Source: an uncultured Bacilli bacterium (GTDB lineage: Bacteria; Bacillota_I; Bacilli_A; RF39; UBA660). From it: a stretch of 64,000 nt of DNA. The position numbers and the translations under genes were made by a program. The DNA is taken from positions 248,001 through 312,000 of the forward strand of contig CALVKA010000001.1 of assembly GCA_944332475.1 (NCBI GenBank), given 5' to 3'. The notes below the pieces were generated by a model. It was not told the DNA's origin, did no database searches, and saw only the letters and a list, made by a program, of their open reading frames with translations. Shown here piece by piece: positions 38,065-43,134 of this stretch; the first letter of the stretch is position 1; the number at the start of each line of letters is the position of its first letter.

Positions 38065-40617
38065 TTATTCCTTTCTACTTGCTTCTTTTTTTAATTCATA
38101 TAGATAGTTTAGTGCTTCCATTGGTGTCATTTCTAATGGGTTGATTGCTTTTATTTTTTCTTCTATTGGATTTTTCTTTGGTTCCGCTTCACTTTCCGTT
38201 AATTCGAACAGTGAAGTTTGTGTAAATGTTTCTTTTTTTACATTTTTCTTTTCATATACATTTAGAATTTCATCAGCTCGTTTGATTAGACTTTCTGGTA
38301 GATGAGCAAGACTGGCAACATGAATACCATAACTTTTATCTACAGGGCCATTTTTGACTTTGTGTAGGAATGTTATTTTTCCATCTTTTTCTACAGCTGA
38401 AACATGGACATTTTTTAAATGTTTTAAATCTTTTTCTAAGGCTGTTAGTTCATGGTAGTGAGTAGAAAACATTGTTTTGGCTTTGATTTTGTCATGTATA
38501 TATTCTAGTATTGCTTGTGCTAGACTCATACCATCGTAGGTTGCGGTTCCTCTACCTAATTCATCAAATAAAATTAGACTATGTTCTGTTGCTTCGCTGA
38601 TTGCGGTATTTGCTTCTTTCATTTCTACCATAAAAGTTGACTCTCCAGATACTAAGTCGTCACTTGCTCCAATTCTTGTAAATATTTTATCAAAGATTGG
38701 CATGGTACAACTTTTACATGGAACAAAGCAACCAATCTGGGCCATAATAACAGTAATTGCACATTGTCTCATATATGTAGATTTACCTGCCATATTAGGT
38801 CCAGTAATTAATAGTATATCTGTTGTTTTGTCCATAATAATGTCGTTTGGAATGTACTTATCTTTCATTACTTGTTCTACAACTGGATGACGACATTCTA
38901 TCATTTTGATACTTTTTTCTTCTGTTAATGTTGGTCTTACAAAACGATATTGATCACTTACCATTGAGAAGGATTGTAACATATCGATTTCACTAATTAT
39001 TTTTGCTATCTTTTGTAGTTTAGCAGTATATCGTTTTACAACTTCTCTTATATCCATAAATAATTTATATTCTAGACTGATAATTTTTTCTTCTGCTCCT
39101 AAAATAATATTTTCTTTTTCTTTTAAAAGTGGAGTTGTAAATCTTTCACAATTCGCTAGTGTTTGTTTTCTATCATATCCATATTCTTCTTTGATTAGAT
39201 GAGTCTGTCCTTTTGAAACTTCTATATAATATCCAAATACTTTGTTGAAACCAACTTTTAAATTTTTGATTCCCGTTTTTTCTTTTTCTTTTTGTTCTAG
39301 TTCAAGAATGAAGTCTTTGGATCCACTACTGACTCTTTTTAATTCATCTAATTCTTCATTATATCCTGACTTTATTAAATGACCTTCGTGTAATGTAAAT
39401 GGAGCATCTTCTAGGATGGTTTTATCTAATAACTCGTATAATTCATCTAGGGTTTCTAACTTTTTGTCATAATGAATTTGTTCTAGAATTTCTTTTGTTT
39501 TTGGAAGATGTCCAAGGGAAGTTTTTAGTTGTAATAAATCTTTGGCATTTAAGTTTCCGTAACTAATTCTTCCGGCTAATCTTTCTAGGTCATAAACATT
39601 TCCTAATTCTTTTATTAGATCGTCTCGTAAAATAAATTCTGTAGATAGTTTTTCTACCATATCATAGCGACGCTGTATTTCTTCTTTTCTTGTTAATGGG
39701 TTTTCTATGTTATATTTTAAAAATCTTGAGCCCATGGCAGTTTTATTTTTATCTAGGAGCCATAACAAACTATATTGTCTTTCCCTATTTCTTAGGGTTT
39801 CTGTTAATTCTAGGTTTCTTTTAGTGTTGTTATCGAATTCTAGATATTCACTGTTTTTTATAATTTGACATTTTTGAAGGTGATGTAAGTCTCCTTTTTT
39901 TGTGTCGATAATATAATATAATAAATGTTTTAGGGTTGAAGTGAGTCTAATGTCTTCAATTTCTTTATAGATATATTCATAATTTTTATCATTTAACTCT
40001 TCTTCTGTAATTGTTACTAATACATTATAGTTCGTTCGTAGTATTTGAATGATTTCTCTATCTATGGCATCATTTACAATTACTTCTTTAAAACCATGTT
40101 TTACGACTTCTTTTATTACTTTATCTTTTTCCCCTTCGATTAACATGGCATAGACTTCTCCAGTTGAAATGTCTGCAAAACTGATTCCGTAGCAATAATC
40201 AAAACTATAAATGTTTGCGATGTAATTATTACTTTTAGAATCTATATTTTCATCAATTCTTGTTCCTTTTGTAATGACTTGAATAACGTCACGTTTTACC
40301 ATTCCTTTGGTTTCTTTTGGATCTTCTAGTTGTTCACAAATAGCTACTTTATATCCCTTTTCTATTAAAGTATCTACATATGAGGCATAGGCGTGATGTG
40401 GGACTCCACACATAGGAACTCTTTCTTCTAACCCTGCTTGTTTTCCTGTTAAGGTTAATTCTAGTATGCGGGAAGCAATAATGGCATCTTCAAAAAACAT
40501 TTCATAAAAGTCTCCAAGGCGAAAAAAGATAATACAATCTTCGTATTTATCTTTTATCTCCATATATTGTTGCATCATAGGACTTAATTTTTCTCTTTGT
40601 ACTTCACTACGTTTCAT
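38065..40617 (-). CDS. mutS: DNA mismatch repair protein MutS
   Basis: Mismatch-recognition ATPase, 850 residues. The mismatch-binding wedge reads FFRLGDFYEMF (about residue 35), with the Phe-x-Glu. Walker A is TGPNMAGKST, the Walker B region ILFDELGRGT, and FSTHYHELT follows. The N-terminal connector, lever and clamp domains are all present. The ATG at 40617 is chosen because GTGGTG lies 6-12 nt upstream; an in-frame GTG there is part of that site. mutL is not in the window. Confidence 0.96.
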   Translation of the reverse strand: MKRSEVQREKLSPMMQQYMEIKDKYEDCIIFFRLGDFYEMFFEDAIIASRILELTLTGKQAGLEERVPMCGVPHHAYASYVDTLIEKGYKVAICEQLEDPKETKGMVKRDVIQVITKGTRIDENIDSKSNNYIANIYSFDYCYGISFADISTGEVYAMLIEGEKDKVIKEVVKHGFKEVIVNDAIDREIIQILRTNYNVLVTITEEELNDKNYEYIYKEIEDIRLTSTLKHLLYYIIDTKKGDLHHLQKCQIIKNSEYLEFDNNTKRNLELTETLRNRERQYSLLWLLDKNKTAMGSRFLKYNIENPLTRKEEIQRRYDMVEKLSTEFILRDDLIKELGNVYDLERLAGRISYGNLNAKDLLQLKTSLGHLPKTKEILEQIHYDKKLETLDELYELLDKTILEDAPFTLHEGHLIKSGYNEELDELKRVSSGSKDFILELEQKEKEKTGIKNLKVGFNKVFGYYIEVSKGQTHLIKEEYGYDRKQTLANCERFTTPLLKEKENIILGAEEKIISLEYKLFMDIREVVKRYTAKLQKIAKIISEIDMLQSFSMVSDQYRFVRPTLTEEKSIKMIECRHPVVEQVMKDKYIPNDIIMDKTTDILLITGPNMAGKSTYMRQCAITVIMAQIGCFVPCKSCTMPIFDKIFTRIGASDDLVSGESTFMVEMKEANTAISEATEHSLILFDELGRGTATYDGMSLAQAILEYIHDKIKAKTMFSTHYHELTALEKDLKHLKNVHVSAVEKDGKITFLHKVKNGPVDKSYGIHVASLAHLPESLIKRADEILNVYEKKNVKKETFTQTSLFELTESEAEPKKNPIEEKIKAINPLEMTPMEALNYLYELKKEASRKE

Positions 40618-40680
40618 TTTTTTCACCACTAGTTCTATTATAGCAAAATCTCCTTTTATTTCCTAGTTAAATATTGATTT

Positions 40681-41709
40681 TTATGTATGTAAAAATGTCA
40701 TTTTGTTTGATTTTGATAAAGATGAGTTTTTCTTTTGATAAAAAATATTTTGCCAAATAAATTTTATCTTTTTCTTTTTGGTTGGTAAAGATTGAATATC
40801 CATATCAATTTTTATAATTTCTCCAAAAGAAATTGCTAATTTTTCAATGGGAAAAAAGAGATTGGCATTATCGTTAAATGTTTGTAGTGTTAAGTTCATT
40901 AAAACGGGATAAGAACTTGTTGCTTTTGTTAGTTTAATGGGGATGATTTGTCTTGGAATGATGTTGTTGGCATATTTAATATATAAATGTATTGTTTTGG
41001 CAGAAAGACTATTTTCTCTTAATTTTAAAATATTTAAATCTAATAATTTTTGTAATTCTTTGATACTTTCTTTTCTTGTTTTTATTGGTTTTAATGTCAT
41101 GCAAGAAGAAATTGCTCTAGGAGGTGTTTCTTTTTGTAACTCTTTTATAGTTGCTCCTTCTATTCCTAGAGAATGATTGATTAGATATTCTGCGTTATAT
41201 CCAAATACTTCATATAGTTTCTTGTATGAATAATTTCTAATATCTTCCATGGTGTTAATACCTAATTTTTTTAATTTTAGCATCATACTATTACTAATTT
41301 GCCAAAAGTCTGATAGTGGTTGATGGGTGGAACATGTTGAGATATATTCTTTTTCGTCTAAATACGCAATCGTTGTTTTTTGTATTTTGGTTATGATATT
41401 ACAAGCTGTTTTTGCTAAAAAAAGATTGGTACCTATTCCTATTTTTACGACTATAGGATATTTGGATGTCAATTTGTTTTTTATGTCTAGTGCTAGCTGA
41501 TAAGTGCTTTTTTTATATAATTCCTGATAGTTTGTAATGTCAATAAAGTATTCTGTTGTTGTGTATTGGTAAATATCTTCGTAAAAGAATATGTCCGTTA
41601 TTTTATCGTAGATTTTATCATCTAAAATTGATTTTGTGGTAAGAAACTTTTGACTCCACTTTCCTCTTTTTTCTTTCTCTATTTGTAATACTAAATACTT
41701 TTTTGTCAT
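40681..41709 (-). CDS. Y-family DNA polymerase homologue lacking catalytic acids
   Basis: Similar to UmuC/DinB-type translesion polymerases but only 342 residues. The palm end IGIGTNLFLAKTA (about 90-102), the helix-hairpin-helix-like thumb (KKLGINTMEDIRNYSYKKLYEVFG) and the little-finger region are present. Missing is the N-terminal metal motif (usually D-x-[ND]-x-F-[FY]-A-S-V-E). The second metal motif SIDE reads TTTE (50-53), losing its Asp. So the palm is truncated and polymerase activity is unlikely. The ATG at 41709 follows GGGAGG. The reading frame is intact. Confidence 0.82.
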   Translation of the reverse strand: MTKKYLVLQIEKEKRGKWSQKFLTTKSILDDKIYDKITDIFFYEDIYQYTTTEYFIDITNYQELYKKSTYQLALDIKNKLTSKYPIVVKIGIGTNLFLAKTACNIITKIQKTTIAYLDEKEYISTCSTHQPLSDFWQISNSMMLKLKKLGINTMEDIRNYSYKKLYEVFGYNAEYLINHSLGIEGATIKELQKETPPRAISSCMTLKPIKTRKESIKELQKLLDLNILKLRENSLSAKTIHLYIKYANNIIPRQIIPIKLTKATSSYPVLMNLTLQTFNDNANLFFPIEKLAISFGEIIKIDMDIQSLPTKKKKIKFIWQNIFYQKKNSSLSKSNKMTFLHT

Positions 41710-41739
41710 AATTTTTCCTCCCTTTCTTAATCTATTACT

Positions 41740-41769
41740 ATTATAGTACAATTGTTCGTATAAAAGCAA
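41740..41769 (-). promoter_or_regulatory. Promoter of the Y-family homologue with a LexA-like box
   Basis: On the - strand: TTGCTT (41769-41764), 18 bp, TATAAT (41745-41740). In the spacer CGAACAATTGTAC (41758-41746) resembles the Gram-positive LexA box CGAAC-N4-GTTCG with changes in the right half. A second inverted repeat TTGTTCG/CGAACAA spans 41752-41777. Confidence 0.55.
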
Positions 41770-41813
41770 TCGAACAAAGAAAAAAACCGAAAAAAATTTC
41801 GATAAAAAAGAAA

Positions 41814-41833
41814 AAAGAGGCTAACCTCTTTAT
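41814..41833 (-). terminator. Terminator of murC
   Basis: AAAGAGG-CTAA-CCTCTTT hairpin just after the murC stop, followed by a T run on the - strand. Confidence 0.75.
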
Positions 41834-43134
41834 TTTATTAAGTTTTTGAAACTGTCAATTAAATTGTCAACGTATGCACAACTCATAAAACAGATAACAG
41901 AGTCTTTTTCGTTTTTTAATTTGTCTATAGTATCTAGACTTATCATTTCCCCATTTTTTAGATTATCTACAATCATGTGAGATGTTACACCAGGATAGTC
42001 TTCTTGGCGTTCTCTATTGGAATCAATATCTGTTAAATATGTTTTATCAGCAATGTTAAATGCTTCTACAAATTCTTCTTTAAAATCTTTTGTTCTAGAA
42101 TAAGTATTTGGTACAAATACTACCACTAATCGCTTATTTGGATATTTTTGTTTTACTGCTTCTAATGTGACTTTAATTTCTGTTGGATGATGAGCATAAT
42201 CATCAATAATTACACAGTTTCCCATCTTTGTTTCTGCAAAACGTCTTTTAGCATTATGGAATGTTTCTAATAATTCATGAATGGTATCTTTCGTTAAACC
42301 TAATTCTTTTGCGATGGTAATTGCTGATGCTGCATTCATTACCATGTGACTACCATATAGTGGAATGTCAAAATGACCAAATAGTTCTTTATCTATATAT
42401 AAATCAAATACAGATCCTGTTTCCAATAATTTCATATTTTTAATTACGATGTCATTATTTTCATGAAATCCATAAAATTTCACTGGTGTTTGATAATGAA
42501 TTTTTCTTACTTCTTCATTATCTCCGTTTGCTACTACTAACTTTTTTGTTTGGTTTGCAAACATTTCAAAGGTATTTCTAATATCATCAATATCTTTATA
42601 ACACTCTAGATGTTCTGCTTCTATGTTGGTAATGATAGAATAAGTTGGATAGTAATCGGTAAAGTGACGATTGAATTCATCACTTTCTACGACAAAGTAC
42701 TTATTTTTTTTATCGGCATGACCATCTCCTGCTCCAATAAAATAGTTGCAACCAAGTGTTGGCTCTAATAAATGCCTAATTAATGAAGATGTGGTTGTTT
42801 TCCCATGGGTTCCACTGACACCAATTGTTTCAAACATATCGATGACATCACCCATGATTTCACTATATTTTTTTACTGTTAAACCTAATTTTCTTACTCT
42901 TTTCATTTCTTCGTGATCTTCTTTGAATGCTACACTGTAGGTTACAATTGTATCTGGATCAATTTTATGATTATGGTCATAATAGATAGGAATTCCTCTT
43001 TGTTCTAATCCGTCCTGGGTAAACTTGTGACCTTTTGCATCGTCATATCCACTCACTTCGTTTCCAAGGTCATATAAAATTTGGGCCAGTGTTGACATAC
43101 CAGTCCCTTTGATTCCTATGCAATAATATTTCAT
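41830..43134 (-). CDS. murC: UDP-N-acetylmuramate--L-alanine ligase
   Basis: Adds L-Ala to UDP-MurNAc in peptidoglycan precursor synthesis, 434 residues. The N-terminal Rossmann motif is YCIGIKGTGMSTLAQ, the ATP loop GVSGTHGKTTTSSL, the ESDEFNRHF metal and substrate site follows, and DDYAHHPTEI is in the C-terminal domain. A complete cell wall ligase, so this organism is not a wall-less mollicute. AGGAGTG before the ATG. Confidence 0.95.
   Translation of the reverse strand: MKYYCIGIKGTGMSTLAQILYDLGNEVSGYDDAKGHKFTQDGLEQRGIPIYYDHNHKIDPDTIVTYSVAFKEDHEEMKRVRKLGLTVKKYSEIMGDVIDMFETIGVSGTHGKTTTSSLIRHLLEPTLGCNYFIGAGDGHADKKNKYFVVESDEFNRHFTDYYPTYSIITNIEAEHLECYKDIDDIRNTFEMFANQTKKLVVANGDNEEVRKIHYQTPVKFYGFHENNDIVIKNMKLLETGSVFDLYIDKELFGHFDIPLYGSHMVMNAASAITIAKELGLTKDTIHELLETFHNAKRRFAETKMGNCVIIDDYAHHPTEIKVTLEAVKQKYPNKRLVVVFVPNTYSRTKDFKEEFVEAFNIADKTYLTDIDSNRERQEDYPGVTSHMIVDNLKNGEMISLDTIDKLKNEKDSVICFMSCAYVDNLIDSFKNLIK

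Follow-up and report, generated by a model that had tools for sequence, protein, structure and literature searches.

Inactive members of the Y family of DNA polymerases are described, in the parts of two papers available to us, as components of mutasomes, in which they contact RecA or ImuA and partner with DnaE2. ImuB, the inactive subunit of the ImuA-ImuB-DnaE2 system, and the inactivated PolY paralogs of the scDinB2-like, gbDinB2-like and Kyrpidia types are all associated there with DnaE2, and each has retained the RecA-NT motif (PMC6511836, PMC12926913). The active relatives, as set out in the part available of the first of these papers, carry at their C terminus a clamp motif (QLxLF) followed by the RecA-NT motif and a conserved tail that presumably binds YolD, and the B. 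subtilis members of the YqjW (PolY2)/UvrX (gram-positive Pol V-like) group are predicted or shown to be controlled by LexA (PMC6511836). The protein described here, which we call deadY, is likewise an inactivated PolY paralog, but it is linked to neither DnaE2 nor a RecA-NT motif and so lacks the handles of the described groups. Searching the literature for Y-family pseudoenzymes controlled by the SOS response, we obtained no match.

Gene, domains and lost residues

The deadY gene occupies 40681..41709 on the minus strand of the window, a 64,000-nucleotide stretch of an uncultured Bacilli genome (G000; 1.43 Mb, 95% complete). It encodes a fingerless, catalytically dead Y-family protein of 342 residues, starting at an ATG at 41709 and stopping at 40683-40681; the TTG start listed by the gene-finding program at 41769 is unnecessary. 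Pfam aligns the IMS profile over positions 87-148 of 148 only, leaving the region of the first catalytic Asp and the fingers outside the matched part. IMS_C is matched at nearly full length and the thumb weakly. Among the 15 orthologs, IMS is found in 15 and IMS_C in 14. The composition is basic (K+R = 53 vs D+E = 32).

An AlphaFold2 model (15 orthologs; mean pLDDT 77, pTM 0.65) gives a confident palm, thumb and little finger, and Foldseek with VIA-align returns only Y-family polymerases as top matches (Rev1, Z 20.0; DinB, Z 19.6; Dpo4, Z 19.4). The overall rmsd is large, about 10 Å, despite the high Z; in the model this probably reflects an altered orientation of the little finger, as palm and thumb alone superpose on MsDpo4 at 2.8 Å over 180 residues. 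These domain and structure matches, including the overlay on DinB, bear out a preliminary description of the gene as a Y-family one that retains the end of the palm, the thumb and the little finger.

The catalytic losses that it reported are also present, together with the missing fingers, and the form is the same in 15/15 genomes. The position of the first catalytic Asp is Gln9 (41683..41685, minus strand), as placed by sequence alignment and the end points of structural alignments to DinB and Dpo4; it is Q, K, E or N in the 15 aligned orthologs and D in none. Alignment with intact relatives shows T50-T51-T52-E53 (41551..41562, minus strand) replacing SIDE. At this second site the Asp is lost in 15/15 orthologs and the Glu retained in 14/15, with SKxE, SExE, NxKE and TTTE among the forms, so that none of the 15 proteins has either catalytic Asp (palm strand 1 or SIDE) or fingers. 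The N-terminal beta strand (KKYLVLQI) is present. One sequence alignment put it onto the last strand of the fingers and another was ambiguous; we favor its assignment as the catalytic strand from the end points, and the end points only, of the structural alignments. These alignments begin with model residue 1 against residue 0 of DinB and with model residue 3 against residue 1 of Dpo4, such that Q9 would fall on D8 of DinB and D7 of Dpo4, which we take to be the catalytic Asp in each. The first Asp would then have been mutated inside a kept strand and the fingers deleted after it. The palm helix GIGTNLFLAK is retained.

In active Y-family enzymes (Dpo4, HhH motifs), the Gly of the thumb hairpin and an Arg or Lys of the little finger contact DNA. 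Both are changed in all 15 deadY proteins: the HhH hairpin Gly to Ser139, and the little-finger residue, equivalent to Dpo4 R331 and R or K in 23/23 active proteins, to Glu289. From these changes in the DNA-contact signature, we infer that deadY may have lost DNA binding, a reading against which its basic composition counts. A Gly of the RecA-NT motif, invariant in the 23 active proteins, is mostly Lys in the deadY orthologs.

Residues 303 to 342 (40684..40803, minus strand) form a tail that AlphaFold2 predicts to be disordered and that has a conserved hydrophobic end. It stands in the place that the clamp and RecA-NT motifs and the YolD-type tail occupy in YqjW/UvrX. The internal QLxLF is absent from deadY when it is aligned with intact relatives, and the YqjW/UvrX tail profile scores at most 3.6 bits on deadY, whereas RecA itself scores 14.3 bits and most intact relatives, many of them among the sequences it was built from, 64 to 85 bits. 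The tail ends in a motif of the type [MIV]-[TS]-F-L-[HNQ]-[TI], which one ortholog (L015) lacks. Resemblance to a clamp-binding end is weak, with the usual Gln in 4/15 orthologs (QMSFL, QMTFL twice and QMNYL), and the deadY terminus is a possible candidate for a clamp-type linear motif.

Conservation and origin

An ortholog search of 40 related genomes found the fingerless dead form in the window and in 14 of 15 congeners, at similar short length and 58 to 69% identity. In the remaining congener (G005), neither deadY nor mutS was found; with mutS missing too, the locus is probably unassembled, and G005 is unusable as a natural absence. No short form was found outside the genus in 117 genomes sampled from the order, where Y-family matches are ordinary frames of ~390 to 520 aa, save for fragments at contig ends. 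Short frames in one genome (G064), considered as truncated forms, look like such fragments and were set aside. A pattern search of viral contigs gave 94 matches, none of them to a relative, and among the matches listed from phage records there are only ordinary Y-family proteins, at ≤37% identity. Genome contigs returned congeners only, plus two intact Chlorobiota/Kapaibacterium DinB-like proteins; the named records are uncultured Bacilli and Tenericutes MAGs. We file deadY as a new variant of inactive Y-family proteins restricted to one genus.

The locus itself is constant. On the minus strand, murC (41830..43134) lies directly upstream of deadY and mutS (38065..40629) directly downstream in 15/15 genomes. 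An intrinsic terminator of murC (41814..41831, minus strand) parts it from deadY. The preliminary description had allowed that relatives with intact acids might occupy this locus or that an assembly error had removed the 5' end. Neither is the case: the relatives at the locus are equally dead (15/15), with the closest intact ones (L097-L100) in other gene neighborhoods, and the 15 genomes are alike. Moreover, murC ends 120 bases before the deadY start codon, leaving no room upstream for a missing part; a lost 5' end was excluded, as those 120 bases hold the promoter and terminator only.

In a midpoint-rooted maximum-likelihood tree with active Y-family relatives, deadY is monophyletic on a long stem and nested among active YqjW/UvrX-like proteins, grouping with L020, an active YqjW/UvrX-like protein (bootstrap 100), and with L097/L098 (76). 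It is not adjacent to its own genome's YqjW/UvrX copy and is thus not a recent duplicate. The YqjW/UvrX group, taken as ancestral, shares palm, thumb and little finger with deadY but differs in having the RecA-NT motif and the YolD-type C-terminal tail. The three closest pairs of deadY genes have dN/dS values of 0.087, 0.142 and 0.105, and the median pN is 0.244, vs 0.080 for murC and 0.059 for mutS, indicating that deadY evolves faster than its neighbors yet is clearly constrained, under strong purifying selection.

Promoter, other polymerases and possible roles

Upstream of deadY we read a -35 hexamer, TTGCTT (41764..41769), and a -10 hexamer, TATAAT (41740..41745), both on the minus strand. 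The LexA-like box noticed earlier between them, CGAACAATTGTAC (41746..41758, minus strand), held up in a promoter comparison and a genus-wide pattern search: CGAAC and GTA are invariant in 15/15 promoters, the central four bases vary (AATT, AAAT or GTAT), and the box directly precedes the -10 in all 15. A generic sigma-70 scan did not list this promoter, owing to its weak -35. In B. subtilis the SOS box has the form CGAAC-N4-GTTCG (PMC9578287); the deadY right half reads GTACT instead of GTTCG and is an imperfect half-site. An 11-mer present in the deadY promoter, CGAACAATTGT, has 53 sites across 16 genomes of the genus, vs 5 for the reversed control. The genome encodes LexA, and a search across the genus for further boxes, as the preliminary description had proposed, located them at recA, lexA, ruvA, deadY and a flippase region; in the window's genome they read CGAACAATTGTTTT at recA, CGAACAATTGTATG at the lexA-divergent site and CGAACAATTGTACT at deadY. 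All 30 of the CGAACAATTGT loci that were read lie at recA (8), lexA and a divergent small membrane gene (8), deadY (7), the flippase region (6) or ruvA (1). Membership of deadY in the LexA regulon, as predicted from its box, is therefore well supported.

Two further Y-family genes are present in the genome, both intact: a YqjW/UvrX-type polymerase (C1:454 kb; 502 aa) that carries QLDLF and a DinB-type polymerase (C2:491 kb; 415 aa). Within L002:171-2097 (minus strand), the former overlaps a YolD-like gene directly downstream, whose Pfam score in this genome falls short of the cut-off; an SOS box, CGAACATTTGTTC, is present upstream.

The resemblance of deadY to ImuB is only a broad one, in that both are inactive Y-family proteins behind an SOS-type promoter; unlike ImuB, deadY has its fingers deleted and is a single gene beside mutS in a genome where neither DnaE2 nor ImuA was detected. 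The DnaE2-like partner that had been suggested did not turn up: in the genome, at 95% completeness, no second DnaE or DnaE2 was found, only PolC and one DnaE (994 aa) that scores 923 bits against the replicative alpha model vs 504 against the error-prone model. A search with PF00154 (RecA family) has a single match, RecA itself. An ImuB-C domain is also lacking, as only ~40 disordered residues extend beyond the little finger. Thus, in the earlier reading, the dead Y-family protein and its SOS control stand, and membership in the ImuB type, which would call for DnaE2, a RecA-NT motif or an ImuB-C domain, does not.

These observations bear on what deadY might do. It could still be an ImuB-like helper that binds the clamp and primer-template and recruits PolC, DnaE, DinB or the YqjW-like enzyme for mutagenic bypass. 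Its basic composition and the clamp-like tail of some orthologs would suit such a helper, and a dead Y-family fold behind an SOS-type promoter fits the ImuB theme (PMC6511836, PMC12926913). We consider this reading unlikely, however, with one DnaE plus PolC and one RecA-family match in the genome, without the RecA-NT motif and internal QLxLF, with the HhH Gly and little-finger Arg lost, and with the fingers absent, a loss that the available parts of the two papers do not describe for ImuB. Alternatively, deadY might work in mismatch repair, for example by delivering MutS to, or holding it at, damaged or recently bypassed sites. In 15/15 genomes the two genes are adjacent; in the window the gap is 51 bases with no terminator found in it, making read-through into mutS plausible. 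Yet mutS has its own promoter in this gap, with an extended -10, TGCTATAAT (40637..40645, minus strand), kept in 14/15 genomes (TGTTATAAT in the other, L017), and on the other side the unrelated murC is equally conserved, close relatives sharing most of their gene order. The suggested tie to MutS comes from gene order only, and a mismatch-repair role is in our judgment very unlikely.

The loss of most polymerase interaction motifs also admits a damage-induced role outside replication, in which the Y-family scaffold is reused, e.g., to bind another SOS protein or regulate proteolysis; the conserved hydrophobic C terminus might just as well serve as a tag recognized by a protease. Both the companions that share the LexA box and the preserved palm-thumb-little-finger fold point instead to replication or repair, and we regard such a reuse as improbable. 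That deadY is a decaying pseudogene, or an assembly artefact of a normal polymerase, would account for the missing domain and lost catalytic residues but is scarcely credible given 15 separate assemblies that agree, open frames and a conserved promoter and operator; dN/dS of ~0.1 in close pairs excludes a pseudogene.

Our preferred reading, held tentatively and at somewhat less than an even chance, is that deadY is a stable pseudo-polymerase derived from YqjW/UvrX and, induced as part of the SOS response, modulates lesion bypass at the clamp by binding other proteins. A YqjW/UvrX-type ancestor would have lost its catalytic acids and fingers, and the resulting form would have been fixed before the present species of the genus diverged. 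Upon DNA damage, LexA would leave the operator and deadY would be made along with RecA, UvrA, RuvA and the intact YqjW-type polymerase. Its palm-thumb-little-finger body, with the DNA-contact residues changed, may act as a protein-binding module, while the flexible tail with its conserved hydrophobic end would tether it to a partner, for which the beta clamp is the likeliest candidate. In that position, deadY may scaffold or limit the access of the active bypass polymerases (the YqjW-YolD pair and DinB). We lean toward limiting or hand-off over support of synthesis, because the tails thought to build mutasomes by binding RecA and YolD are gone. A bolder form of the proposal, in which deadY founds a DnaE2- and RecA-independent class of fingerless pseudo-polymerases that act as an SOS-induced brake or hand-off at the sliding clamp, in a role unlike that of ImuB, seems to us rather doubtful. 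With this protein it can be tested whether a dead Y-family scaffold alone controls bypass, and a natural minimal construct, fingerless but with palm, thumb and little finger, is at hand for telling catalytic and noncatalytic Y-family functions apart.

Other predicted SOS elements in the genus

Overlapping the deadY -35 is a second conserved element, TTGTTCGATTG (41767..41777, minus strand), common to the upstream regions of uvrA, dinB, ruvA and the flippase gene. This 11-mer has 60 sites genus-wide vs 8 for the control; it is located on or close to the -35 of uvrA, dinB, ruvA and deadY and upstream of the flippase gene (L047-L052, L069-L096). Not being a palindrome of the LexA type, it might represent either an extended half-site or another element that responds to damage.

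A gene for a membrane protein of 62 to 69 aa points away from lexA, and the region separating the two holds a LexA-type box (L120, L123, L137, L141, L144); its product is possibly a YneA-like SOS division inhibitor. Similarly, a polysaccharide-flippase-like gene and its divergent neighbor have a CGAACAATTGT box in the intergenic region (L126, L128, L131, L136, L139, L143), making the flippase gene a candidate for an unusual member of the SOS regulon.
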